Shown piece by piece: positions 9,655-58,828 of a DNA stretch of 64,000 bases. Under the pieces are notes generated by a model. It saw nothing but the letters and a program-made list of their open reading frames with translations, did no database searches and was not told where the DNA came from. The DNA lies in the NCBI RefSeq assembly GCF_037975245.1, contig NC_092572.1:2331501-2395500 (forward strand), given 5' to 3'. Each line of letters opens with the position of its first letter. The stretch's first letter is position 1. The translations under genes and the position numbers were made by a program. The DNA comes from Apostichopus japonicus. Taxonomy: Eukaryota > Echinodermata > Holothuroidea > Aspidochirotida > Stichopodidae.

Positions 9655-11340
9655 ATGGCAGAAAGCATACGAACATCCTGTACGCGTTGCCTGAAGAAAT
9701 ATCCAAGATACCTTCTTTCAATGCAAACGTCGTGTGATCATTTGCTTTGTAGTAAGTGTTCTACAGAAATACTTCACATTAGTTTCAGTTGCCCTAAATG
9801 CCGCCCACTAATTACATTACCAGGGCCTGCAACGGATGGAACCCATCAACCCCTTTGCTTAGATCACAACAGCAATGCAGAATTTTATTGCTATTCGTGT
9901 CAGGCATTCGTTTGTTCAAAGTGCCTTCTAAAGACTCACAAGATACCAGATCATGAGGTAGCAGTGTTAGATGATGATACTACAAGAAAGGTCAAAGCAA
10001 ACCTTTTAGAAACATTAAATCAATTCCAAAGAGAAATCGCAGACATTGCTCAAAGTATTGCACATGCAAAACGTGTTTGCAAAGAAGACAAGGAAAGGCT
10101 TGCGGAAACTATATCAACAAATCAGAAGCAAGCAGCTGCTATCATTCAGTGTTTAAATGAAAATCTCTTAGATGAGCTTCAAAGAAAGTTTCAAGAGACA
10201 TCAGATATATTCACGCTAATTGATCGTCAGTGTAAAAAGGCTGAAGAGGAAACTTCCAATACACTCGAAAGTATCAAGGCTGACAAAAGTGCAGATCTGG
10301 CACAAATCAAATGTAAATTTGAGGATATTAAAGCCAAATGTCACCAATTAAAACAGGTGAAGATTCCGAGTAATCTGAATTTGAAATTTGAAGATGAACT
10401 GCAGGCAATAGCTTTTGGCAACCTTGTACCATCCAGAGCAGATAACGAAGATTCTTCAGGCTATACCCGATTGATGACTCCATTACCAAAATGGATCTTG
10501 AAAGATACAACCGACATAAAGGGTTGTGAACTTGACTTCGCTAACATGATTTGTATCAATGAAGACTGGATTGTCCATCTAAGTAATCTTTACGGTTCAC
10601 TATGCATCTCAGTCAAGCACTTCAGTATTAAACAAGCATCTGAATTTCGACAACCTTTCATACTACCAATGCCAAGTTACAACTGGACTGTCGCTCGAAC
10701 GGCCGGACATGATCGTAGTATACTAATCGCATCCTGCCGTACAGTCACACTCATAAGTTTCCGTAGAGAAGATATGGAAGTTAAACACACTCTCGAAGTT
10801 TCGATTGATGTCGAAGCCATCTCATGGGACGAATACGGTATTGATTGCTACCTGCTAGCAAAGAATCTGCGAGATATTCACTGGTTATCGAGAAATGGGG
10901 AATTGAAGTTCCTTTGTACATTAGGCACTGCTCTGGACTCACCCGGTAGCATGCAAGTCTACAACCAAACGACGCTGGCGTTTCTAGACATATCTTCTCG
11001 AGAGGTTTATAGTCGTGACTTCATCACTAATGTTAAAGGAACCAAAACCCTATTAAAACAACCTCTTCCCAGAGAATGGAAACTGAAGACAGATACTTTT
11101 GTTCCTCGAGCTGTAGTTTGCATGCCAAGTCCAGGCTATCATCTCGTTCTCTTCCATGGCGGAGATTGCGTGGCTGTAGGCCAATATGATGAGAACTTTA
11201 GGTTTTTGGGCTGGATAGTTACTGTGAAATCTCCATCTGAAGAAGATTTCATGGATATTGCGGTACAAGGAGACAAAATATTTCTTCTCTTTGAAACTAA
11301 GCTACTGGTATACGGAAAGCAGCAAAGTACAAGGAAGTAA
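9655..11340 (+). CDS. TRIM-type RING / B-box / coiled-coil protein (561 aa)
   Basis: Single-exon CDS. A C3HC4 RING finger is formed by C9, C12, C27, H29, C32, C35, C46 and C49. A type-2 B-box follows: C68, H71, C79, C82, C87, C90, H95, H100. Residues about 105-240 are Lys/Glu/Gln-rich with heptad-like leucines, a coiled coil. This RING, B-box, coiled-coil order defines TRIM proteins, which are mostly ubiquitin E3 ligases acting as dimers. The C-terminal part (about 285-555) has repeated beta-strand-like stretches and could be a beta-propeller-type module. I see no SPRY, filamin or clear NHL signature, so the substrate-binding end is unassigned. The first in-frame ATG has A at -3. Invertebrate deuterostomes carry many intron-poor TRIM genes, and this fits that class. 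E3 activity is inferred from an intact RING. Confidence 0.92.
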   Translation: MAESIRTSCTRCLKKYPRYLLSMQTSCDHLLCSKCSTEILHISFSCPKCRPLITLPGPATDGTHQPLCLDHNSNAEFYCYSCQAFVCSKCLLKTHKIPDHEVAVLDDDTTRKVKANLLETLNQFQREIADIAQSIAHAKRVCKEDKERLAETISTNQKQAAAIIQCLNENLLDELQRKFQETSDIFTLIDRQCKKAEEETSNTLESIKADKSADLAQIKCKFEDIKAKCHQLKQVKIPSNLNLKFEDELQAIAFGNLVPSRADNEDSSGYTRLMTPLPKWILKDTTDIKGCELDFANMICINEDWIVHLSNLYGSLCISVKHFSIKQASEFRQPFILPMPSYNWTVARTAGHDRSILIASCRTVTLISFRREDMEVKHTLEVSIDVEAISWDEYGIDCYLLAKNLRDIHWLSRNGELKFLCTLGTALDSPGSMQVYNQTTLAFLDISSREVYSRDFITNVKGTKTLLKQPLPREWKLKTDTFVPRAVVCMPSPGYHLVLFHGGDCVAVGQYDENFRFLGWIVTVKSPSEEDFMDIAVQGDKIFLLFETKLLVYGKQQSTRK

Positions 11341-14436: not shown

Positions 14437-17400
14437 ATGAAGCACAACTTCTTATTCCAAAATTTCTTTCTCTCTTACCTTTTGATAATGGTTTCTTTGA
14501 CAAGCCTACTGCGTGTAACGGGTAAGTTAATTTATTTATGATATGGCTGCACGTTTCCTTTGTCTTTCTTTTCAATTTTAGATTTAGAGCTAAATGCCGT
14601 TTGAAACAAACACAGAAGGACAACAAACAGCTTTAGAAAACCCGTTTGCTTCCGAGCCTTTCCTGAAATATAAAACTTGAAGAGAACCTCTGCGACATAT
14701 TTCTTTCCTTTATTATATTATATTATATTATAGTATTGTATTATAGAGTTCATAAAGTTTTTCTATAAACTGTTCTTTTTATTGTAGCGAAGTGTCAACA
14801 TTTCATAATAGATCATATCAATTAAACTTATATTTGGTTTCATAATTGCAAGTACAAATTATGAAAATCACGATCATTTCTTTCAATAAACCTAGACTTG
14901 ATGTATCGTATGTATATCTGTTTTGGAATACTGATAGATTGAAGTTTGACGTAGAACTTTACAAAGTCTTAAATAATGACTAGACATACTGAGCCCATAC
15001 TGCTTACGTTGAGGTTTTATTTCACATGGTTGTATAGATGATATGTTCTGAGTGTTTGTCAAAAAGAAATGTCAATTTTAGACGTCAAAGATATACTCAT
15101 CCGATAGATTAGGTTTATATTTATTCCAAAGCGAAAGATTTTGCTAATAGCTACTTTTCATTTCTGTATAGATGTAGTCGAAAAGTTTAGAACTCCCATC
15201 ATCTCCAGGATTCATACTTGTTGCTCTCACGGTAGACCTGCCACTCTATTTAGCTTGAAGCATGACTTTAGACAGGTGATGAAATGAGAAATTAGAAGGA
15301 TAATTATTTCCATTATTTCTTGGATGCTATTCGAGCACTCTTTTCCACTGTCTTCGTTTTTAAATTCGTCTTTCCCCCATTTCCACTGATTTCAACAGAG
15401 ATTTCAGTAACTACTGTTAATCTTTAAAAAAAGAAATACTACAGTAAAAATTAGATCGTGCTGATAAATATGATATAAATCGGTAGCATGTGCTATAAGG
15501 ATTACAGTAAGAACTGAGAATATCTATAATACCAACAACTGCATCAAGCTGGATTTGTTGGGATTGCACGTGTCCTCATTTTTTACTGTAACCATAATAG
15601 CACATTCTACTGATTTAAGCGCAATCAAGCCAGTTTTTACTCTGGTGCAAATATTTAAAATTTACAGTAGTAACCGTGTTCTCTGTCTGTATCGGGTGTC
15701 GTTTCTTTCTTTTTCACTCCAGCAGTATCGGGAGATCTTAGTGCCTCTCTTGGCGCTACCATCCAGATGCGTTGCACTTGGCGTGATACTCAAAAACCAT
15801 TGATGATAATTTGGCGGCACAATGGTACAGTCATATTAAGTCAATCCATTTCTCGCCTACAAGAAGAGACAGACAGATATCTAGCGACACTGCACGAGAA
15901 CTCGTCCGTTGCCTCTCTTTACATTCATGGTGTAAAGTCTGAGGATAAAGGAGGGTATTCTTGTCATCCCGTAAATTCAGAGTCGGAAAAAGATATCTGC
16001 AATGTTCTGGTGATAGGTACGTTGTATGATACCTGTATATTATAACTTCTATAGCTGATCTCAATAGTAGATAAGCGTATATAAAGCGCTTGAATGGAAC
16101 TCATGTTGTTAAAAATTTTAAATTTCAGATGTATGCATATTGATATTTTATGGCTGCAGTTAGGATTTCCGGGTAACGGAATAGTTACAATATTAGTTCA
16201 TTGTAATATCGATTTTCGTCCACAGAATATCCCCGCGGGAATCCTGATTTTAGCGATACAGACGACCTTGCTACACAGGATGAGTTTGAACCAAAAAGTA
16301 CATCTAGCACACATGTACTTATCAATCAAACGGAGGACTGCGCTGTAGTTGCAAACGTCAATGTATCATTTTTCACCAAATCGTCAGACTTTCCAGGTTA
16401 GTATGAATTATCATATATAATAAAAATACTCGAGTTGTAAAGCTTCGTGGAATTAAGTGATGGCGTTTCAGGGGGACTTCATTTCATATTTTTTTTTCAA
16501 TCTTAAAGAACATATTCAAGTTTTACACACAGTCAAAAGCATTCTATCCTATATAAGGAACACCAATGTGAAAGTCATTTCGAATATAGCACTTCAAACA
16601 GTTAATATTATTTATATACTGAAGTACACACTTGTGAACGAAATATTTAGTTTATACAGAATGATACTTAACTTGAGCTATCTGAAGCATCGATTAACTG
16701 AAACTGAGAAGTAAGAAACTGTCAAGTGTTTACATTTTGTGTATGACGTTAGCTTTGTAGACGATAAATTCATTAGTTCATTCAACGAGTGGTATTCGAC
16801 GAGTTTATACTTTTTAAAGCATTTGAATGAAAGAATTGCAATAGCTCCTGGAGCACATTTTCATTTCTGGTACTGTTATTATTGCAGTGAAAACGACGCA
16901 AGTAACTCCGAAAATGGTCACAGGTAGTCTCGGTTCACATGGATCAACTTCCACACTAAGCCCTAACTCAACCAGTGTACATTGGATCTTTATCGTGATC
17001 ATTCTGTGCATTCTCGCAATCGTGGTTGTTGCTATGATTATAGCAGTCGCACGAAAAATACGTAAGTTTCCAGACAATCTTTAGGGACGGAAAACTGATC
17101 GTATCTCCTTATATCTCTTGAATAAGAGGTTATAATCTCAAGATTTGCAACGTGAACCGCGAAATAACAGCAAATTAGATTTGTTAACACTCCCAAACAA
17201 AGCATTGGGCGACAATGCGAACTCCATTGACACCAAGGTTTTACTTCATCTTCAGTGATATAGTTATGCAAGTCCTCATTTACGTAATGATAATTAATAT
17301 TCCATGGTGATTTAAGGACTTTCATATAAAGAAGTGTATTAAACCATTTTAAGCTTATCATAACATTTCCCATAAATATTCCTGAGTGTTATTGTGTATT

Positions 17401-20400
17401 ATTTAATGTTTCGTCTCAGAGATATGGGTTCCTTCACAATGACCTAATATAAGGCTTTTACATATATGCATGTTCATTGCATGAAAGGTTTAGAAAAAAA
17501 ATGTAGAAACACTCAATTTATTGGTCTGGTGTCATTTAACATCACAAATTTCATTTTCAGTCCTATGTGGATTAAAGTTACTTAAAAGATTAAGCCATAT
17601 AAAGTAATGCTATGTGAGCTTTATCAAATCTCGATAATATTATAACAGGAAAGTACAATACAGAGAAAACAATACACATATGCTGTAAAATATCACATGA
17701 TCCAACTAGTTTGTGTTCATATCCTCAACACAAATGTTTTGATATCCATATGGTGCCATAGTAGTTGGGTAGTATTGGGAAATTAGCTATTAAAAAATAA
17801 CTTAGTAACAATTTCAATCTATCATTTCATCTTAACAGTAGTTTGAGATTATAAGATGTTTAAAAAGAATGGTCTCTTTCATGATGATAGGTAGGAATTA
17901 AGGGTTGATTTTTTGCTATTTGTTCTGTGCAATTATTGTTTATTACCAAACCGGAAAATTGTCCTGACTTAATGACTCATCATTTCATTTTATTTATTTC
18001 AACTGAGCAAATTCGGCATGTTATACAATGAACGAGATATCCCGCATAGTGTGCAAATTTCTACAAACGTCCTTGCTGTATACTCTTCAAACTTACTTAC
18101 GTTCTTACAATTATTTGGGAAATGTTTACTTGATATAGTAATAAACATATATCAGAAAATGATGGTCAAAAGTAACAAGAGATGTTTATCTTTATTTGTG
18201 TTATCGTAGTTATCCATCCCAAATTAGCATAATCATCATGTAAACGCCCATGTCGCAAGACTGACTGCTTCCCACCATAAACATTGGTCATACGTCAGCC
18301 AATCAAAGCAAAGTGAGTTATACTAATTCTGTAGAAAAAACAACGCGGAAATATCATCAGATTATTTTCAATGGTAAATTATTCACAAATTAGACCCTTT
18401 TAAGTTATATTTGAAAACAGGTGTATAGAATTAAGAAGTAATATAATAGAATGTCCTAGGATTACCGCCTTACATAATTTATGTTACACTACTTTCAGAC
18501 TGAAATCACAGCACACATCTATGGTTATGCGAAATGAAGTTATAAATGATGGGGAGAGTGGAAAATGAACACATCAGTTTCGTGAAAGAAAGAAATATGA
18601 AATTGTCCTTTTTAAGACATGTGAAACTGAAAACAATTGAGCAGAAGAGAAATCCTTAGTTTAAATTGCTTTCGTAGACCTGCTGACGTTGTTAAGCATT
18701 ACAATAAGTAATAACTTTATCTTTCACTTTTCCTTTGACAGGCTCTCCTGCGCAGTCACAGTCCTCAAATTTAATCACAATGTCGTAAGAATAAACAGTT
18801 TTCATTCCATTCATGTCCAGTTTTCAATAAGTTAAATCACACAATGGTATGAATAGACGGGACAAAATAGAAATTATTAATAACTTACAAAGGCAAATCA
18901 CAAAAGGAAGGAAAAAGTTATCACATTTGTAATGCACACTCTTCTCTGTTGGTACTTGATGCCTCTAACTTGTCGGGACAATATCAAAACTGTTGTTGGT
19001 GCGTTTCATGGAAATGCGTAAAAGGACACACATATCGTGGCATGAACCTTTTTGAACAGGCTATAGATGGATAAAAAATACATGAATAAGGTTTTGGTTG
19101 AAAGTTCGTTGAATGTGACTCCCATCTACGAATCCTATGTACGTGTGTTTGTGAGTGTTGGTTGGGGCCTTTCCCGAAAAACGAAACAAAGCTAGAGAAT
19201 AAATGGCGTATTCTAATGCAGATTAGACTATAATACAGGACTAAAAAACATCTAAACTCACGCTTTGCTAAAAAATAGTTTTGGATTCTGCAATAAAATC
19301 TTTCGGGCTTTTGCGCACGGAACTAAAAACATCAGCAAATTGCATCTTCGCGTTCGACTAAAACGCTGGTGGAACTCATTGCAATTTATATAACAAAAAC
19401 AAGTTTCTTTGGAAATCAAACAAATACAAACGCTTCATTATGGCACCCTTAGGAATACATGGCTCTGCTGATCATTTAGCCAAATGCACAAACAAATACC
19501 TATTTTCTTTTGTAATTTTGAAGAAACCGTTCGTTGCCCTCTGTCCCGGTCAAACTCATTCGTTCATCAACTTCGCGTTACTCTGGTGACCAAGGTAATG
19601 GCATTTTAAGAAGTTTAAGAAGTTTTGTATAACTTGATTCCCTTTTACTGAGAACCATATCAGAACAAACTACATTTTGTTATGTTACTATGTGCAGTAC
19701 CGTAACGTAAAGCAGTTCTCTCAAAATACTTCAACTATGATTAAAATCCTTTATCAATATCCAAGTTGAGAATCATCATCAGTTTTTTAAGCATTGTTAA
19801 ACTAGATTAGTCGCACTGATCTTGATAATTATGTCATGGTCATTTATGATACTTTAAATAAAGAGATAGAGGAGATACCTAATGTGCTTCAACGACTTAT
19901 ATAAACACACAGTTAAGAAAGCTTTGAAAATCCTCATTAGTTCAAGCAATAATTTTTACTTACTTAATTGGTTTCTTCACAAGCATATGTGAGGTTCTTA
20001 AATTCATATAGAGTTGTTTGTACCTTGCAGGTATTTACAATGCTATCCGAGAAAATGTCAAAAAGAATCACAAGACAACTATATTGGAGATAGCGCTTGA
20101 AGACATAACCTTCGATGTGCAAATCGGGAAAGGAGAAAAAGTTCAGTCTTGGCGAGGAACCTTCACTCACCCTAAGAATGGAGTAGTCACTGCAATGATC
20201 TCGTCAGCAAGTGGTAGCCTATATATTTCATATATTTTGTGTGTTTTGTGTTTATTCTGCTAGACTAACCTATCGAATACTGTATATCATAGTTTCCAAT
20301 GTCCGACATACAATGACATTTTAACATACAACCATACCAAAGGTGAGTTATTTCATTATATTTCAACTGCCACATATTGCTTAACATAGGTCGCGTAACT

Positions 20401-23400
20401 GACTATGCAATCAAAGAGAAACACTGTTGAAAAGATGATCAATTAGTTCACTTTACAGTAAGAAAACACAATCTAGAACTTTAGCGATATTTAAAACCTA
20501 TTGACATAAACATTTATATGGTTAATATAATTCTTATTTGTTAGTTACAACACCAATCTCACATTGGTATATGTTTAATTTCCAATGGAATGGATATGCC
20601 GTCGTCTTCAGTTTTTTGATGAGTTACATTACATTGCCTACATTACAATGTGTTACATTGAGTTACATTACCCTGCATACAGATTCGTCTAGTTTGATAG
20701 GGCACAAATGATGCAAAATGTTGCAAAAATATTGCAAAACTTAAATGCCACCACGCATAGTATTTCTATCATAAATTGGTAAATTTTGAATAACTTTTAT
20801 ATGCTCCTTTGAACTAAATAAACCTTCTAGGACAGAGGGAGGTTGCCCTAAGCAACAATCTATGTTTATCCAATCTCAATATTCCAGATACTAACGAGCT
20901 TCGTCTTTACACCGAGTGGTTCCGTTACGTCAGCAATATCGTTACGATACCTGCAGAGAGCGACAACATTGTGTTGATATACGGATTGTGCCTGGATATA
21001 GGTACGTCTAGAAGGAACGTTTTGATTGGTTTAACGTGGTAAAAGCTGTTTTATGTATTCATAATAAATCATTTTATACATTTACATTTGTTACGATGAG
21101 GTGTGATGAGAAAAGTACTTTACAATACATTTTCATTTCGCGTTTGGATTGGTGTAACAAATAAAACATTTATATTATCAAAGAGGAAGTAAAACCACGG
21201 GAACAAGTCAGCATAGCAGGAGAGTACATGAAGCTGTTGTTGGTTTGTGTCAACATACACTCGTTTAGAAAATTGATTGAAGACGAGACACTTCAGTAAA
21301 AGCATGAGACCGAATCGGGGGGGGAGGGGGTGGGTGGGTGAGGAGGGGGCTAACAACTCATTGTAACCTCGGAACAGAGTAAGAATAAAGTCTGTTAATC
21401 ACTCATATTCAGTACTTCCATTATACCTTTACACCCTTAATTATCTCATCATAAGTTTGCTCCATCCATTAAAAAGAGTTATAAGTTGTCGATACATGGT
21501 GATACGATTGTATGAACTAATTACGTCACATGGTACGACCAATATGAAACAACAATTCAAATTTTTCTTCTCCTTCTCTTTACCTTGAAAAGACAACATT
21601 TTTCTGGTCAAAGAATACTTGAGCTGTGGATCCCTGGCTGATCATCTTAATGCTGATCGCTCAATGAACATGAAATATACCGACTTGATGAAGGAGTCTA
21701 GGAGGTCAAAGTTCATTTCATTTACGATGGATATCATTCGTGGCATGAACTTTCTTAATTCTAACGGGGTGCGTTTTTTGTTGTGTGTTTTTTTTTTGTC
21801 GTTGAAGTATACAAACATAAATCTGGAATCAGTGTTGTAGGACTACAGCTAAATTGAACAATGGTATGAATAATCTGTCACTTATTCACACTTATATGGC
21901 GATAACACAGGACGGTACTAATTACAAATATATTAAATATATTACACTGTTGTTATTTCTCTTTTTTCAACACTGTTGTTCTATTGCGTTTATGTTGAGC
22001 TCATTTGGTTTACCATTGATGCATGTTAAGTGGTTGATGTGCTTCCTCTCAGTGATGTAAACATTACCATAGCACATCACATCAATAAATTATTTTAAGA
22101 ATTGGACACATGAAAAGTGCTGACCAGTACTCTATTTTACAATCGTAAACATCTGCTGCTATTTTAAGGTTTGTTTAACTTACCTTTCCTTCACCAACGT
22201 TTGAATCACCTTGCCATCATGCCTCTTATCATACTTTTTTTTTTTCAGTGGGCTCATCCGGGGCTGTGTTCTTCAAAAATATTATTAAGTGCCGACCAGA
22301 CGTGCAAGCTTTACGATTTTTGTACATTTGATGATGTGAAAACAAAAGTTTCGGCAATAATTGAAAAGGTTTGTACGTTTGAAGTTCTTTACTTTATAAA
22401 CTATAATGTTCAACAATTAAAAAAAAAACTAAAAGCTAAAAACGTAACACCGTAAGTTGTTTATTTGCCGAGAGAGTTGTAGACAAATCGCGCTGGTGTT
22501 GTGTTTGCAGTTTCTGACCCATTCAGGTATAGGTTTCGCATTTCACCGATACTGATTATTTATCATGATTACCAGTAAATGTTAACGCTAAAGGAAGATC
22601 TATATTGAGTAATAATTCTGATAAGCAATATTTAATAACCTTTCATATGAAATCAATTCTTATAACAGAGAGTGACAAAACTTGAGTGGATTGTGCCGCC
22701 GGAGACCTTGTGTTACAGAGAATACAACTACTATAGTGATGTATGGACAGTTGGTACAGTCATTTGGGAGATATTCTCAATGGGTGAATATTTTGAGTTA
22801 CATTAGAATAATAATAGTTCATTATATTAACAACTTGAATCAAAGTATAGATCATTCGTTTATAGACTACACGTTAATGTTCGTTTAGTTCCTTTAGTTC
22901 ACTGACGGGGATCTTCCATCTAAGGGAGGCCTACATTAGCGAATGTCGTTATTTAAAATTTGTTCAACGGTGTATCAGGATCTTACATACACAAACTTGA
23001 TTCTTAACATATAAACATAACCTTTTTGTTACAAATCATAACACAGGAATCCCGCCTGATGAGGTACAGCCTACTCTTTTAAACGCTTCTGCTGAGAAAG
23101 TCCCTTCCCGGATGTCATTTATGGGGAATACAAAAGATTTGCCACCAAAGCCTGCGCAGTGCCCGTATGTAGTGTGAGTATGACAGAATCGTTTTCGGGA
23201 AAGTGTTAACACTTTCACGACACTGAACAAGTTAACATGTGAAAGTTGAATTTGTCAAAAGGTGTTGAAAGGGTGGAGGATGGGTGGGGAATAGGGAAAC
23301 TTGTATATTAGGACATACAATCCGTAGGATAGATGACTTATTGAGAAATCATAGGTTTTCGGACATCTTTTAAGTTGATCTTTACTGTTAAGATTGATTT

Positions 23401-24291
23401 AATTTGATTTTCAAACAGATATAAGGCGATCACCCTTTGTTGGTCACGCGATCCTTTGACTCGTCCTTCCTTTCGAGATTTGACGGAATATCTGGAGAGC
23501 GCTCTATCAGTTCACAACCTAACCACACGTGTTGAAAAGGTAAGGGTTAGTTTACAAGCAAATAGCATACATGTGTAGTCGAGCAATGATCTTTATCAAA
23601 ACAGACAAACTAAAGAGACTGAATTCTTACTTATTCAAGTTTTTAATCATGTGAAGAACAGAATTAAATTCTGATTTTCTTTCCTCATAATATAAAATTA
23701 CATGTGTACAAGGATAATTTAAATGAACGTTAACTATCTCAACTTGGTGCAACAACTATTAACTGTGACAATACTAACGTTTTATCAAGACATAGGAAAT
23801 AACAACAGGCTCAACAAATGTTAATTCCATTATTGTAGATATTGTCACGTAATCATGTCCTGATTTTCCAACATTGTTATGTGGATATTACCAGTCATAT
23901 GTGATACGATTCATCTTTCTTCAGAATGGAGGGTAAACCGTCCATGCATAGAGATATTCATGGAAAAAAAGTCGACTTTCTTTCGTGATTACAACATACT
24001 AACAATTTGGATGAATCTAGAATAACAGAAGCATTTATTCATTTGTTATATTTTCATCGGGCCGAAGTCAATGCTATCAATCTTGATACTTGTAACATAA
24101 TATCACTTCTTATTAATATATTGGCCTACATTGATTTGATTTATCTCTTTTAACCCGGTTTAAATAATTTTCCACAGAAAACAGAAGAAAAATACCTATC
24201 TCCAGACGATCCGGTGTTAATTGACTGTTTGAGGAAAACCGATACAAAGTCTTCTGACGACTGTGCCTTCACAACCATGACAACTGTTTAA
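14437..24291 (+). CDS. Ig-domain receptor with a catalytically dead tyrosine-kinase fold (12 exons, 615 aa)
   Basis: Exons: 14437-14521, 15726-16016, 16226-16396, 16888-17061, 20031-20213, 20831-21001, 21593-21768, 22249-22368, 22669-22783, 23047-23173, 23419-23539, 24178-24291. They total 1848 nt, every junction has GT..AG and a matching phase, and no stop occurs before TAA. Residues 1-28 form a signal peptide. 29-125 is an Ig domain (C45, W58, D102-x-G-x-Y-x-C108). 126-214 is a Thr/Ser-rich stalk, 215-237 a membrane span, and about 258-575 a receptor-tyrosine-kinase fold with IGKG at 272-275, a hinge EYLSCGSL, GMNFL, SDVWTVGTVIWEIFSMG and CWSRDPLTRPSF. Catalytic residues are missing: the beta-3 Lys position is Met296, HRD reads HPG (420-422), the catalytic-loop Asn is Lys427, DFG reads DFC (440-442) and APE reads PPE. 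Predicted plasma-membrane pseudokinase receptor. Exon 2 could start 3 nt earlier. I saw no AATAAA within 430 nt of the stop. Confidence 0.88.
14700..14735. repeat. (TTATA)n microsatellite
   Basis: Short run of TTATATTA units in intron 1 of the pseudokinase receptor gene. Confidence 0.7.
15726..16016 (+). CDS. Exon 2: Ig domain of the pseudokinase receptor
   Basis: One exon carries a whole Ig domain with phase 1 at both ends. MRCTW gives the strand-B Cys45, IIWRHNG the core Trp58, and SEDKGGYSC the strand-F motif with Cys108. An extra C120 lies near the end. The acceptor tract is TTTCTTTTTCACTCCAG, followed by a second CAG that gives a one-residue alternative. Phase 1-1 symmetry is typical of extracellular modules that are shuffled between genes. 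Confidence 0.9.
16888..17061 (+). CDS. Exon 4: membrane span of the pseudokinase receptor
   Basis: After ATTATTGCAG the exon encodes a Ser/Thr-rich stalk end, then about 23 hydrophobic residues (Trp215 to Ala237) and the basic stop-transfer ARKI. The donor is GTAAGT. The next coding exon in phase is 3 kb away at 20031. Confidence 0.88.
17062..20030 (+). other. Intron 4 of the pseudokinase receptor gene
   Basis: About 3 kb between the membrane-span exon and the first kinase-fold exon. No further exon with splice sites and a compatible phase was recognised, and no mobile element. Confidence 0.6.
22249..22368 (+). CDS. Exon 8: degenerate catalytic loop and DFG region
   Basis: Forty codons after TTTTTTTTTTCAG. 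The reading WAHPGLCSSKILL aligns with the family's V-H-R-D-L-A-A-R-N-I-L-L, and CKLYDFC with the C-K-x-x-D-F-G segment. The proton-acceptor Asp, the Mg-binding Asn and the DFG Gly are replaced. The DFG Asp (D440) is kept. Confidence 0.88.
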
Positions 24292-38447: not shown

Positions 38448-41195
38448 ATTTCATACCGCACTTAGCGTTACTTTATTTGATCAATCGAGCAATATAAACC
38501 ATACGTCACGTTACATTATTTAATCAAAAAGAAGAGAATATAAAACAACAGAAAAACGACACATTTCTTTGGAACCAAGTGGATTGCGTTTGTCCAACAA
38601 GATAACATACATGCCTTCATATGCCCCCCCCCCCCAACCCCTCGCCTATTTACTCACACGCACACTATAGTCGGTTGCGGTTTAACAAAACTGAAACATA
38701 CTCCTTTTACGTGCAAATTTCTTCTAATATTTAACAACATGTTCAACCTTGGCAGGACTTAGCCCCTTGGACACACAGTAGATTTGAAATTGCATTCGTA
38801 TATGAAAATTGGTAATTTTACAATGTACTTATGTGGTTTAGTTACGATAGCAACAAGGGAGCTGTCTCATAGCACTGTAGTTTCCGGTTGTAGAATACCT
38901 TGTACAGAAATAAAAAAAGCCCTCTTTCTAACTTTTGGGCTTTAAAATTGCTACTAGAGGACAATAAATACCTCAAAACCAACAAATTCCAGGAACCCTG
39001 AAAAAGACTTTAAAATAATTTCAATGAAAGGTTCTCGTGAGGTGCACTTCATACAGGTGTGCTTCCAAAATGCCCCCCCCCCCCCATCATGTTTGTTTGC
39101 CAATACTCCTTATTGGCACCCATCTTTCCCCCTCACTTTGGACATTTTGGTGCCACCATTGATTGCGCGATAGCAAAAGCATTGTCTGTGTTGATCTCGC
39201 ATAAAACCAACTTAACCAGCCCCGTCAAAACTAGAATGAGAAGGTAATTTACGGTATATTGAAGCAGGAGCAATGTTAACCTTATAGAATATGACAACAA
39301 ATATGCGATTGACTTCCAATTTATATCGGTTGTCGTGTGTACTTCTCATGATGCACTATATGAAGACATTTCGGAGAGTTTTTTCTTGTTTAATGGCCCT
39401 AGTATTCCGTACGCACGCTGCCACTTTCATAGACACATATATGCACGTTTGAAAACAACGTACATACTTAAGAACAAATTAATCGGGCAACACCGACGTC
39501 ATGCTATGGTTGCTGAATTGTGCGCTCTTTCTATAATCCAAGAAATTTCCGTTCAGGACATTTTTTTACGAAACAAATAAACCACCGTGATGACTTGAAC
39601 ATTCTTACAGATTACTGTTACGAGATACTGAGGTTCTGTCGAAACTCCTGACACAGTGCCAGTCACAAATCACCCCCCTTCCCCAACACCCCCGTCGCTT
39701 GGGAACTTTTGGTGCCGCCATTAATTGCGCGATATCGTGAGATCCCGTTTAGAACCAACTCAACCAGCCCCGTCAAAAATAGAACGAGAAGGTAGTATAC
39801 GGAATCGAAGCGGGTGTAATAGTTACCCTTTAGAAGATGGATGGCAAAAAATATATGCGATTGACTTCAATTTAAGAAAGTAAATACATCGGTTGTAATT
39901 TGTAATTTGTAAAGACATTTCGGCGAGTTTTTTCTCGTTTAGTGTAGCCTAGTATCCCGTACTCACGCTGCTACGTTCATCGACACATATATGCACGTTT
40001 GAAAACAACATACATATTTAAAAATGCATTAATCGGGCAACACCGACGTCATGCTATGGCTGCTGAATTGTGCGCTCTTTCGCTATAGGCTTATTACACA
40101 ATATAAGATTTTCTATTCAGGCCGTTTTTTACGAAATAAATAAATCACCGTAATGACTTGAAGGTACTTACATATTACTGTTACGAGATACTGAGGTTCT
40201 TGCAAAACTCCTGATTTAAAACATTTATATTCACCGTCGTCGGTACTATCCACGTCTGTTATCGTAAAAATCGTGGTATTTTCGACTGCAGTGACGTTTA
40301 TGGGCTTTGATCTTTTGTTATATTTTGCTGCTCCCTCAATCCCAAAAATAACCTCATTGTTCTTATGTAACTTTATGAAGACAAAGCCATCTTTCTTTAA
40401 AGTAAATATGAGATCAATATTACTGCCTTCCTCAATGACCAGTTTGTTCGCCGCTGCCACTGCAAAAACACAAAAACAAAAATATTAATGATATGAACGC
40501 GAAAAAAAGAGTTTTGAAAATCTTTAGTTATGCTTCCTCGTCACAAATCGATAGACATTGAGAACCCACTCTGGACCACTAACAGTTGGAGTGGTTACGT
40601 TAAGGAATGTTTAAAAGTAGCTATCCTGGTTGCACTATTTGATTACATTTAGTCCGCTGCATAATTGTATAAATATTCTGATATTAAAGAGATATTCTAG
40701 TTGCAGACAATGCTACCTTTGGTCCATAATTATAACAATATCCTAAACACAAAGAGAACTCCATCTCAAATATTGTCCATAACTTAACATATAATTGATG
40801 AAATCAATTATATGTTAAGTAGCCCTAGCCCTTTGATGTTTCCCTGCAAAGTGACTTGTGTTATGATACCAGCGAAAACCGTTAAAAGGCTCTATATTCT
40901 TAATTTTATATTTTGGTTAATTCTATGATTCATTTGGAAGACTTCCATATTTAAAACTTGATCAAAATCTAACTTTTTTTTAGAAATATTGTTTCCCATC
41001 TTCATAGATGCAGAAATATGCAAGCAATGTCTTTTAATAAACACATATAGTGAGAATAAATGCCTGTTAAATTAACTAATGTTACGCAAACTTACCACAA
41101 CAGGGTGTTATCAAGAAGAGCTCAAACAACAGCAACACTCCGACGAAGGCCAATAGTAACTGACTTTGATTCTTACCTGTCTGAGCCGACGCCAT
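36045..41195 (-). CDS. Secreted or partial single-Ig protein (3 candidate exons, 142 aa)
   Basis: Exon 1 (41096-41195) encodes a signal peptide, starting MASAQTGKNQSQ and followed by about 18 hydrophobic residues to PCC; its donor is GTAAGT. Exon 2 (40172-40459) follows a T-rich tract ending TTTTTGCAG and encodes a 96-residue Ig domain, phase 1-1, with the motif DSTDDGEYKC. The usual strand-B cysteine is absent (DLIFTL) and so is the core Trp, so no canonical disulfide can form. The best next exon is 36045-36085: a strong pyrimidine tract ending CCCGCATAG, then 13 codons open to a TAG. Total 429 nt, in phase. Exons 1-2 are well supported. The third is tentative; a membrane-anchored form using other exons is possible. 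An AATAAA lies at 35568-35573 on this strand. Confidence 0.6.
36086..39095 (-). other. Probable intron / unassigned
   Basis: AT-rich, with a (TA)n tract at 38389-38442 and C-tracts near 38624 and 39074. No further exon could be supported. Confidence 0.4.
38389..38442. repeat. (AT)n microsatellite
   Basis: About 27 uninterrupted AT units. Confidence 0.97.
39100..40220. repeat. Tandem segmental duplication covering the end of the Ig exon
   Basis: 39100-39650 and about 39675-40220 are diverged copies. Shared words include ACCAGCCCCGTCAAAA, GACATTTCGG-GAGTTTTTTCT, ACACATATATGCACGTTTGA, ATCGGGCAACACCGACGTCA and GATACTGAGGTTCT. The left copy keeps the last about 30 bases of the Ig exon and its donor, then diverges. 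The Ig exon remnant in it (near 39611-39645) is a truncated pseudo-exon. Confidence 0.8.
40172..40459 (-). CDS. Ig exon of the 36-41 kb gene
   Basis: Symmetric phase 1-1 exon with acceptor TTTTTGCAG and donor GTAAGT. N-glycosylation-type sites NVT and NTT are present. Only one cysteine lies in the domain (YKC), so the fold would rely on its hydrophobic core. Confidence 0.82.
40782..40820. repeat. Perfect 18-bp inverted repeat with a 3-base loop
   Basis: ACTTAACATATAATTGAT, loop GAA, then the exact reverse complement. It lies in the intron between the signal-peptide and Ig exons of the 36-41 kb gene. Confidence 0.95.
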
Positions 41196-41593: not shown

Positions 41594-42530
41594 GATTGAC
41601 ACGTCTGTATATTCTAAACCCACTGACCGTCACACATATCTCCACTTTCATAGTTCACTCATCTCATATTAAAGAGTCAATTGTCTTTCAGCAAAATGCT
41701 TTGCTACAAACGCATCTGTTCTGATCCCCTACAGTTTCGTAGTCAATCAACCACCCAAATACGTCACTTCCTTGATTTTATTTATCCCTACAAATTATTG
41801 AAGAGAACCCTGAATAAGGTCTGTAGAATTCCCAGGGAGAATCTGCTTCAATGTCAGCATAGAGAAGTGAAAGAGCACCGTGTTCCATTTGTCGTTTCAC
41901 ACAGTAATCAGGTCGTTCCATTCATTAGGCTGGTAAAAATTAATGGAAGACGTTGAACTTGGGAGACGATATGGGTGACATTTTATCAACCCCCCCCCCC
42001 TGTAGTTGCTAGAAGACAACCTCCCTTCCTATGTAACATCCTTGTTAGGAGTCGTTTACCCTCCAACGACGCTCCCCAACCCAAGGGGAACATTAAATGT
42101 GGTAAATCCCGGTGTAAGGTTTGTCATCACATGATCACTGACCCTGACATTCAGCTCTCTCCTTCAGGGGTGTGTTTACATCCAGGTCCTTACAATTGTG
42201 ACACTCCCTTTGTGATATATCTTATCACTTGTGTTCTCTGTCCTGATATACAATACATTGGCCAAACCCCCACTCCCTTTCGTTTACGCCTTAATAATCA
42301 CAAAAACACATTCAGACTCAATAAAACCAGTTTTCCAGTGACTGAACATTTTAATCTTCCACAACACAATATCTACTGTCTTTAGTTTGCCACAACCCTG
42401 GGTAATTTGTCTGACCATAATAAAAGAAACTTGAAGGAAGTCGAATTGATCCTTAAAGTACGTTCACACTCTCATGGTCTCAATAGCGATATGGCTTTTC
42501 TTTCCGGGTTCAAGCACTTTTAGCAGTCTG
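41592..42530 (+). mobile_element. Penelope-like element relic: RT end and GIY-YIG domain
   Basis: Plus-strand frames read [13 protein letters not shown]-like sequence and RYKRICSDPLQF-type sequence (41600-41720), then KCGKSRCKVCHHM, VIYLITCVLC, IQYIGQTPTPFRLRLNNHK and FPVTEHFNLPQHN. The C-x-x-x-x-C-x2-C cluster followed by a Y-L-I / Y-I-G-Q-T endonuclease core is the hallmark of Penelope-type retroelements. It is 5'-truncated, has a C-tract at 41990 and frameshifts, and is dead. Confidence 0.8.
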
Positions 42531-54684: not shown

Positions 54685-57600
54685 CTATGCTTTCAAGTCA
54701 TCATATATTTTCTGCAGCAAACAGGCCAAAACAACTGTAATAATCAGAAGCACAACAAGCAGTGTGCAAACTACAATGGACGCAGCAGGTGGCAGACCTG
54801 TTTGACTATCTGTACAAAAACAATTAACAATTGAATGGTTAAGTAGCAGCAGTTCACAATATTATATCAGGAGTGTTGCAGGCGCTGTGTAGAGAATTGG
54901 CCTTTCATGTGAGTATACTGCAGATCTTAAGTCTAGAATTTATTATCACAGCAAGTACAGTAGTCCTGGATACAAAGGTTCACTTGTTAAAGGTAACAAT
55001 TGTTACATCATGGAAGCTACAAAATGTGAAATATGCAAGCTGGGTACAATATTATTGTGCATCAAGGAGAATTTGTTTATCTTAAGTTGAATCCAATATA
55101 TAGCACATTCAATCGACTTAAGATGAGCAGCTCTACAGAATGCAAAGATGGATTGAGACCTTGGCCTACAGAGATATTCTGGTGACATACAATACTTAAT
55201 GAGAAAGATATTCCACATGGTAGTTGAAAACTAAATCTCAATATATTGTTACTAACTTAATTCATGGTTAATTAAATGTAACATTAACCCTACACCTGGC
55301 TTAAACTGTTCCTCCAAAGCTTCACCTGGCCTATCCATAAACTGTGGTACCGTTGGCCTATCCATAAACTGTGGTACGTTTGGAATATACATAAACTGTG
55401 GTACCTTTGGAATATTCATCAACTGTGGTTCTTTGGAATATTGCTTAGCTGTCCATTGTTCTCTGTGTTTCAAATTTTATCAAAATGCAAAGCTTTTACA
55501 TAGAAATAGTTTACAGTATTTATGTTGGATCATCATGATTACATCATTAATTCTCAAAGGATGACTTTTCCTCTTGTCTTACTGAAACTTTGTTGATATT
55601 GCATTCGACATTGTCAGAATATTTCGCATAGGTCTGTTTCAACATTTCAAGTTTCTTTGCAATCTAGCTCCTTTTAATATGCTAATAAAAACTACCTATC
55701 TAACAGAATGAACAAGTGTGAAAGGGAAGAAATATCAAGAAAGCAGCAGAAGCAAAACTTACCATGTTTTGTAACATTCATCTGTAAGTTGATCATCTCT
55801 CCTTCAGAATCAGTACATGAACAGGTAACATACTTGTATTCTTGATATACTAGCACACCAGACAGTGGTGTACAGGATACACTAAGGACACCATCTTCCA
55901 CATCCTTGCAGCATGGTGTGCTGTATGCATGAATTACACCTTTAGGTTCTTCGATGGCAATTGATGAGTATGTCTGACCCTCAAAGAATGGTCTGTTGTT
56001 TATTCCTACAACAATAAGAAAGGACAACATTTTGAATACTTTGCTACAAAGCACACCTGTATCAGTTACAATGCATCAGGAAAATTTCTCTTCAGTTTCA
56101 ACAGTGCTCAGTACTCCATTTTGGCCAGTGGTAGGTTGAGAGAGATGCTTGTTTGCCATGTTCTTAGAGACCTTGTCAACATCAGGAAAAAACATTACTA
56201 TCAAACAAAGTTAAATGATCAACTGAACTCAAATGATCAATGAATCTCTCAGCATGACAATTATGTCCTGCCCCATACCGCCCCCACCCCAACAACACCA
56301 CTTCCCTGAAAGACTTGTTTTGTGTGCCTCTTTTATAGTCTGATTGAATTGCCGATGGTGTATTGTAAAGCAAGAGAAGGGGTTGGTTGTCCACCCTAGA
56401 GAGGAAGTACTGATCTTGACACTCCATTTAAATACTTCCAGTAACTATCTGTATTTTCTTATCCTTATCCTTATCCTTATTGTTTCTTGTCCTTGTCTTA
56501 ATTTGTTTTGTTTTTAATTCAACCTTTTCCACTGGTCACAACCACGTCTTTTCCCAAATCTTATTTGCATGTGTAGAATATTCTGAGTTTAATTTTGAGT
56601 GAATTTATTTCTTTGAGGCCTATTTTCATTAGGAGTACTGGTAATAATATCTTTACATGAACAGCTTAAAATAGCTGCTAACAAAATGGCAAATGAGAAA
56701 GAAATTCAACTTGCTATCATTTCAATCATGTCTACAATTTCTTTGTTCGAGTTTTTAGTAAACAGATGGCGGTGTATATTTTCTATATATAGAAAGTGAG
56801 AAAATTGAAAAGCCAGAAAGTCAGTTGGCTTAGTTTTGCTTTGCCAAATGTTCAACGAGAAAATAAACAGTTAACACCTCAAACAAGATTCTTATGTGTT
56901 GTCCATTACTGACTTCAAGTGATCAAGCCAGATTGTTGGACAATTGTAGATGTACTGTACCTACCGAGTTAGATGTTCATCATCCAGGCTTTACTTGTTT
57001 CTATCATATCTACAAAGGTTTTAAGAATTCAGAATCAGTTCATGTACAGGTACTTATATTGTACAGGGACCTATGTAAAGTGACCTATATTAACCTAGAA
57101 TAAATTTCTAAAAGATATACCCTATTCAGTTATGAGGTGCATGCTTGCAAATGTTTACACACTATAACCTCTTTTGATCTTTAACTTTCAGTTGAGAATA
57201 GGGTTCTTGTAATCACCAACTTGGATCTATATTACAAGTATGAAGTTAATTTTTTTTATAGTTCTTGCATTAACAAAGTTTTCACACAATTATCTCTGTT
57301 GACCTCAAAACACATTTAACCATCACAAGAAATGGTTCTTGTACTCAATATATTGGATCAACATACCAAGTACAGAGTTAATCCACCATAAATTTTTTGA
57401 ATTATTGTGTTTACAAGCAGGTGTCACATACACACACAAACACGTACCCACACCATCTCATAGAATCCTATCACCTCCGACGATTGAATAATGAAGAAAC
57501 ATCAAGATAGCAACAGAAACAAAACTCACCATGTTTTGTTACATTCATCTGAAAGTTGCTCATCTCTCCTTCAGAATCAGTACATGAACAGGTAACATAC

Positions 57601-58828
57601 TTGTATTCTTGATATACTAACACACCAGACAGTGGCGTACAGGATACACTGAGGACACCATCTTCCACATCCTTGCAGCTTGGTGTGATGTATGCATAAA
57701 TTACACCTGTAGGTTCTTCAAAGGCAATTGATGAGTATGTCTGACCCTCAAAGAATGGTCTGTTGTTTATTCCTACAACAATAAGAAAGGACAACATTTT
57801 GAATACTTTGCTACAAAGCACTCCTGTATCAGTTACGATGAATCAGGAAAATTTCTCTTCAGTTTTTAACAGTGCTCAGTACTCTATTTTGGCCAGTGGT
57901 AGATTGAGAGAGATGCTTGTGTGCCACCTTCTTGTCAACATCAGGAAAAAAACTACCATCAAACAAAGTTAAATGATCAACTGAACTACAGTACCCTTGA
58001 ATGTCAAATGATCAATGAATCTCCTAGCGTGACAATCCCTCCCCCCCCCCCCACCACTTTGCTGAAATGGCCTGTTTGAACTGCTTATGGTTCATATTGC
58101 AAGAATTCAGACCTAAATCAACTTAAAGTGAACTTAAAAGGAGATAAATCTTTTAAGTTATAGAGTCCATGCTAACAAATATTCTAACAACTGGTCGTCT
58201 GCCGGACAATCTCCACAGCTGATGTTGGTTGTTTTGGGTGACAGGACCACCACTAAAATTTCGCCCGACAAATCATCCCCATTGCTGACCAACTATATAC
58301 ATAACAGGTGCTGTTGTTAAGAGTAAATCAACAAAGAGACAGTCCCAGCAACACTGGTCAACATAAACTGAGGTGTGAGCTGATAAAAAAGGGTGTTCAT
58401 GTCACTAATTCACCAGCCTTGAGAAAACACCAACTGAATGACTTACCTGATGAAACTGTTAGCAGATGGTCTGAGTAATATTTATATCCAGTTTCGTCAC
58501 CTAGCTGGCAGCGGTAGGTATTGCCACCATCCTCCATGGTAAGGTTCCTCAATGCAATGCTTCCATTAGGATAAAGAGTACAGTCATTGAGCTCTATATT
58601 GCAAAGTATGGTTCCATCAACATTAAATGCCAACTGAGCATCTTGGCCATTTGTTAATACATCCCATTTCAAGTTTCTTCCCCCTTCTGTGGTTTTGACT
58701 CCACAATCCAACGTCACACTCCCTCCTTCCTTTACAGATACTATTTGGACCCCATATGCAGTAATCACATTGCCTGATGATGTACAAAACAAAAACAAAA
58801 GTAGAAAAGATGCACAGATCCAGATCAT
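54685..58828 (-). CDS. Single-Ig membrane receptor with a duplicated extracellular exon
   Basis: Exons (minus): 58447-58828, 57530-57772, 55763-56005, 54685-54809. All junctions are GT..AG and phase 1. Exon 1 gives a signal peptide (ICASFLLLFLFC) and an Ig domain with SVTLDCGV, LKWDVL and EDGGNTYRCQ. The next two exons are near-identical 81-codon modules with four or five cysteines, for example VSCTPLSG and YVTCSCTD; their family is not recognised. The last encodes DSQTGLPPAAS, about 23 hydrophobic residues, then QKIYDDLKA and TAG. With both modules 330 residues, with one 249. Predicted type I surface protein with a very short tail. An AG inside the signal peptide (58774-58775) could instead be a splice acceptor joining the upstream candidate exon. 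The stop overlaps a GTAAGT, so a longer tail is conceivable. Confidence 0.75.
55763..56005 (-). CDS. Duplicated extracellular exon, copy 2
   Basis: 81 codons, phase 1-1, acceptor TTGTTGTAG and donor GTAAGT. It differs from the copy at 57530 by about 12 bases and 7 residues (for example Phe/Ile, Ser/Cys, Tyr/His). Both ORFs and both splice pairs are intact, so both can be used, together or as alternatives. Confidence 0.8.
57530..57772 (-). CDS. Duplicated extracellular exon, copy 1
   Basis: 81 codons, phase 1-1, donor GTGAGT. It reads INNRPFFEGQTYSSIA and later KDVEDGVLSVSCTPLSG and YQEYKYVTCSCTDSEGE. The copy distance is 1767 bases, and flanking intron sequence is part of the duplicated unit (about 55725-56310 and 57495-58070). 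Confidence 0.8.
58447..58828 (-). CDS. Signal peptide and Ig exon of the 54-59 kb receptor
   Basis: The frame is open from MIWICASF to the GTAAGT donor. The Ig domain has both cysteines (LDC and YRC), the core Trp (LKWDV) and N-x-T/S glycosylation sites; two more cysteines (LCNIELNDC) could pair in the C'-D region. Confidence 0.8.

Follow-up and report, generated by a model that had tools for sequence, protein, structure and literature searches.

What does an intact immunoglobulin (Ig) receptor gene do with a kinase fold that has lost its catalytic residues? The question is raised by a gene of the sea cucumber Apostichopus japonicus located in the window, the whole stretch of 64,000 nucleotides analysed here (C12:2331501-2395500), and the genome searches that bear on it covered 671,581,487 bases in 35 contigs. 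The mitochondrial COX1 of this genome reads through under genetic codes 9, 5 and 4 equally; where codes 5 and 4 yield Lys, code 9 yields Asn, for example in MNNMSFW, the conserved form of that segment, which makes the echinoderm code the best fit and supports an echinoderm origin. The spliced model built from genomic DNA starts at an ATG at 14437 on the + strand and ends with a stop codon whose last base is 24291, giving 14 exons and 654 residues with all junctions GT-AG and in phase, which upholds the claim of an earlier note that the reading frames and splice sites are intact. That note had counted 12 exons and 615 residues, a count that we replace; its 12-exon form (616 residues by recount) is retained as an in-frame skipping alternative, because the two exons absent from it, exon 5 (18742..18784, 43 nt, GT-AG and in phase) and exon 6 (19524..19594, 71 nt), sum to 114 nt. 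Both encode juxtamembrane sequence and are possibly a candidate cassette, included or skipped together. In random sequence of the same composition, 654 stop-free codons would have p ~1e-17, a value that excludes random sequence and does not exclude recent decay.

The first four exons run from the start codon to the transmembrane helix. Exon 1 (14437..14521, donor gtaagtta) contains the start codon and a signal peptide judged by eye, and exon 2 (15723..16016, phase 1-1) encodes the only Ig domain of the protein, at residues 34-113, for which the Ig_3 (3.6e-8), V-set (3.7e-6) and I-set (1e-5) matches each exceeded their own curated cut-off; an alternative acceptor 3 bases on, at 15726, would also preserve the frame. 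A linker (exon 3, 16226..16396) is followed by the stalk and a transmembrane helix at residues ~217-235 (exon 4, 16888..17061; hydropathy peak 3.75), and the ectodomain carries five N-glycosylation sequons. Pfam matched Ig and kinase families only, with neither Frizzled nor Kringle in the protein. Its signal peptide, transmembrane segment, kinase fold, missing catalytic residues and intact gene are those of a generic receptor pseudokinase.

The Pfam search that the earlier note had proposed also returned the kinase domain well above cut-off (PF07714, PK_Tyr_Ser-Thr; 4.7e-36, 124.9 bits against a cut-off of 23.1) at residues 383-602. This match covers profile positions 59-258 only, and placement of the N-lobe consequently rests on manual alignment; in one relative the N-lobe is matched by Pfam from profile position 5. 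Exon 7 (20031..20213, phase 1-1) encodes the tyrosine motif GIYNAI, a glycine loop that is partly kept (IGKGEKVQSWRG, with the third Gly changed to Val and the beta2 Val to Ser) and beta3, where alignment places Met335 at the lysine position of VAVK (VTAMI from residue 332). The alpha-C region (exon 8, 20831..21001, phase 1-1) and the hinge and alpha-D/E (exon 9, 21593..21768) precede the degenerate catalytic loop HPGLCSSKILL of exon 10 (22249..22368, phase 0-0), in which HPG replaces HRD at residues 459-461, Lys466 stands in place of the catalytic Asn, and KLYDFC at residues 476-481 has DFC where DFG is expected. Exon 11 (22669..22783) contributes PPE and SDVW-G (SDVW at residue 519), exon 12 (23047..23173) further C-lobe sequence, exon 13 (23419..23539) the motif CWSRDPLTRPSF at residue 584, and exon 14 (24178..24291) the C-terminal tail and stop.

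Every degenerate motif listed by the earlier note was thus recovered in the 14-exon model. Its lysine-free stretch was confirmed between K328 and K404, with the end at 366 and not 364 in its own numbering (290-366), and its list of well-kept structural parts stood for SDVW-G, the C-lobe motif and the kinase fold, the glycine loop being kept only in part. With Met, Gly, Lys and DFC at the beta3 Lys, HRD Asp, Asn and DFG sites, the protein lacks what defines an active receptor tyrosine kinase; judged by these residues, its kinase part is a tyrosine-kinase fold without catalysis.

Several known receptors share parts of this layout. PTK7/CCK4 is likewise an Ig-domain receptor pseudokinase, but it carries seven Ig domains and the window protein one; identity with PTK7 was rejected on this count, and also because PTK7 was not among the 60 PDB matches listed and a PTK7-like gene exists elsewhere. 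The latter (L025, C8:28.49 Mb) has a very long open frame, reads HADLAARN and has inactive tyrosine-protein kinase 7 as its best PDB match (5.3e-58). ROR1 and ROR2 combine one Ig with Frizzled and Kringle, and neither HPG nor DFC is known as a motif of ROR kinases. The kinase domain of ROR1/ROR2 is called atypical in PMC4100928, a likeness to the window protein that extends to the single Ig. ROR identity was rejected because Pfam found no Frizzled or Kringle in the window protein. The best single-domain solved kinase among the PDB matches listed was FGFR2 (2.2e-22), outscored by a two-domain EGFR construct (8e-29). FGF receptors have an Ig ectodomain in common with the window protein, which lacks their catalytic residues, and membership was rejected for this reason and because the FGFR2 match is limited to residues 383-608. 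Second among the PDB matches listed was 7t6f ("Tyrosine-protein kinase"), with two kinase-like domains, of which the first, a weak match (28 bits) and presumably the JAK-family pseudokinase domain JH2, reads HGN at the site where the window protein has HPG and does not belong to a transmembrane Ig receptor.

The earlier note had treated the gene as a one-off whose layout it could not name, a view overturned by the genome searches. A whole-protein search recovered the window gene, some canonical kinases and further exons, the last of these on C12, C16, C1, C2, C3, C20 and C21. Eleven of the loci found in this way, by similarity and not by motif, have a family exon 10 (L022-L024, L029, L030 and L033-L038), and HP together with a Lys at the Asn site occurs in all 11. 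HP is followed by Gly in seven, by Ala in three and by Asp in one (L036), and DFC or DFW occurs in 8/11 and NFC or SFC in 3/11. The canonical loci L001-L004 and L031 keep HRD, Asn and DFG. The pattern CK[LF]YDF[C/W] gave 94 exact matches in the genome including the window gene, against 1 in the control, and C12 and C16 together account for 63 of them; CK[LF]YDFG gave 0 genome matches (control 1), and CK[L/I/M/V/F]YDF with a next codon whose first base is A, C or G gave 66 against 26 in the control.

We fetched 50 of the 94 pattern matches, the first 50 in contig order, and read two more (L030 and L035) from the similarity search. An exon 10 bounded by AG and GT in phase 0-0 was present at 49 of the 50 fetched loci, with the donor placed by hand at the relatives' position in three; the remaining locus, L063, is missing the beginning of that exon, so fragments may occur among the family members. 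These 49 exons and those of L022-L024 form a set of 52 that includes the window gene and not L036, and clustering at 80% identity sorts them into 30 groups. At the position of the HRD Asp they have Gly (41), Cys (6), Ala (4) or Val (1) and in no case Asp, and at that of the catalytic Asn they have Lys (48), Arg (3) or Asn (1). His and Pro of the HRD site are found in 50/52 and 51/52; the His, Pro and Lys counts are unbiased by the search pattern, which biases exon-10 positions 19 to 25. The window gene itself has HPGL..K.LL...CKLYDF[C/W] in an exon 10 of phase 0-0, the features by which we define the family. Some members depart in detail: exons 9 and 10 appear fused in L022-L024 (seen in the L022 gene), and L040, L059-L064, L088-L090 and L093 have DFW then Pro instead of DFC.

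In the six lineages for which exon 7 was seen, the beta3 lysine site is occupied by Met, His, Ile, Val, Val and His in a gap-poor alignment. For the three Ile/Val lineages the loss depends on the alignment because a lysine sits two positions earlier, which is not so in the window gene. Exon 7 of the relatives is compatible with phases 1-1, which were imposed and so indicate compatibility only, and the exon-7 tyrosine motif is not present in the relative at C12:14.18 Mb. No convincing second family copy was found within the 64-kb window, using tblastn with the model and exon-10/11 HMMs, and no close paralogue of the window gene in the genome. On its sequence features, the window gene is a divergent member, present as a single copy, of a large family of Ig-receptor pseudokinases whose genes often lie in clusters.

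These residue counts also bear on whether the domain could still bind nucleotide or be weakly or atypically active, for example with the lysine moved to the glycine loop (K313 or K316) and the DFx Asp kept, as WNK-like kinases have their lysine relocated to the glycine loop. The window protein does retain GxG and two loop lysines, the DFx Asp is retained in 49/52 family exons, and L036 (C16:45.85 Mb) has the catalytic Asp as HPD together with a Lys at the Asn site and DFC. Against this, the HRD Asp is missing from all 52 exons and the Asn from 51, and in our own alignment the other five exon-7 lineages carry Lys in place of the first loop Gly, and Arg-Trp in beta2. We regard residual nucleotide binding or activity as unlikely.

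A tree placed 37 family rows apart from 4 canonical kinases on a 100/100 branch, with the window gene as a long isolated branch within the family; it rests on 70 columns and on rows picked because both exons were found, and it left many forks unresolved. The DFW members in it form one group of ten rows (99/96), with L092 (DFC) inside. When the kinase parts are aligned, the window protein shares 35% of its residues with one relative at C12:14.53 Mb, and 27% with a canonical kinase. The C12:14.53 Mb relative and another at C12:14.17 Mb each have four open ectodomain stretches of ~100 residues apiece. Six of these eight stretches matched an Ig-type Pfam family at <=0.1, one of them above the curated cut-off ("ig", 23.6 bits; the best Ig_3 match was 8e-6), one had no match and one a weak unrelated match. 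A C4 relative has one large open stretch with a signal, weak matches to Ig-type families that fall short of the cut-off, and a segment resembling a TM helix. The single Ig of the window gene looks like one variant among the ectodomains of the family.

The ectodomains of two C12 relatives are 98.9% identical over 1.3 kb and too alike for a selection test. Selection was measured on exon 10 and, where found, exon 11 of close copies. Eleven disjoint pairs were chosen from 39 computed so that each locus was used once, some being tandem and one pair lying across chromosomes; the window gene, without a close paralogue, is not among them. We obtained a dN/dS of 0.20 (bootstrap over pairs 0.11-0.37), with 28 nonsynonymous and 36 synonymous differences against 180 nonsynonymous expected from the intron rate of each pair. 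Synonymous changes in some pairs are fewer than their introns would lead one to expect, so gene conversion or misaligned introns may contribute; the pair L085/L086 (4 nonsynonymous and 2 synonymous differences) was excluded because its introns could not be aligned (53% different). These results indicated that recently duplicated family members are under purifying selection. The earlier note's argument for selection on a non-catalytic role over decay accordingly gains support from the replacements shared on many chromosomes and from the dN/dS, with the evidence coming from relatives and not from the window gene itself.

The same measurements weigh on the reading of the window gene as a decaying pseudogene of a formerly active receptor kinase, in favour of which one could cite the loss of several catalytic residues, the long isolated branch and the one fragmentary relative in 50 (L063). 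Given that 14/14 exons are open with GT-AG junctions, that nearly the same replacements recur across the family (Asp in 0/52, Lys in 48/52) and that duplicated members are constrained, we rejected this reading as highly improbable. An Ig ectodomain joined to a dead kinase would also suit a decoy or dominant-negative receptor, one that does not itself signal and whose sole effect is to sequester ligand or to dimerise with active Ig receptor kinases. A decoy, however, would need less conservation of the intracellular domain than is seen, with dN/dS at 0.20 in exons 10-11 of the relatives, and this leaves us doubtful of that role. Because nearly the same catalytic losses are shared and kept across the duplicated family, its members probably signal by means other than enzyme activity. 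We consider it quite probable that the window gene encodes an Ig receptor with a non-catalytic kinase fold, a divergent member of this large family that acts as a docking or allosteric partner. The Ig ectodomain would bind ligand, the pseudokinase domain, itself non-catalytic, would recruit an active kinase by docking or as an allosteric partner, and tyrosines such as Y282 (GIYNAI) and Y623 (KYLSP) may be targets of phosphorylation in trans.

Expansion into array-like groups points to a repertoire for recognition, perhaps an immune one, of which the receptors would most likely be non-catalytic docking or partner subunits. More tentatively, and with rather less than even confidence, we propose that a sea cucumber lineage built about 100 loci or more into a catalysis-free Ig-receptor repertoire with a shared HPG/Lys/DFC-DFW loop, used in immunity or allorecognition; echinoderm TLR or NLR arrays are comparable to it in scale. 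Plants have receptor-like pseudokinases, and they would find a parallel in a large, clustered family that shares a single non-catalytic signature and is held by purifying selection in animals, where receptor pseudokinases are usually few and old (PTK7, ROR, RYK and ErbB3). Such a family would also offer many natural variants for testing what a kinase fold does without catalysis.

The family would further change the reading of a reported receptor-kinase expansion. In the passages concerned, the 2017 A. japonicus genome paper (PMC5638244) names "tyrosine-protein kinase receptor" as one of the clustered families that have expanded, and ties this expansion to signal recognition and the nervous system, and an H. 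glaberrima preprint repeats the statement (PMC13228809). The expansion of PMC5638244 and the HPG/DFC family agree in species, in receptor kinase-like character and in their many clustered copies; those passages speak of kinase receptors, with no mention of pseudokinases. We infer that the two are the same, and if the repertoire proposal is true, part of the published expansion is not kinases. A literature search of main texts, among them the relevant parts of PMC8662651, PMC5638244 and PMC13228809, turned up no account of a receptor pseudokinase family in sea cucumbers or other echinoderms.

Other features of the window and genome are recorded here. Upstream of the receptor, a single ORF at 9655-11340 (+) encodes a 561-aa RING/B-box (TRIM-like) protein, with the B-box above cut-off and the RING match below. 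On the opposite strand, 58397-58828 (-) holds a signal peptide and a V-set Ig exon (8.3e-8) of a separate Ig gene, the ORFs at 57471-57821 and 55692-56054 (-) are very similar, have no Pfam match and look like a duplication, and 40113-40460 (-) is a weak I-set-like stretch (0.0011, below cut-off). A weak GIY-YIG match at 41975-42385 (+; 0.0029, below cut-off) is possibly a remnant of a Penelope-like element. Further tyrosine-kinase exon clusters lie on C17, C18, C19 and C21 (profile ~116-187) and on C4, C14, C19 and C20 (122-180), and these are apparently other expanded kinase families.
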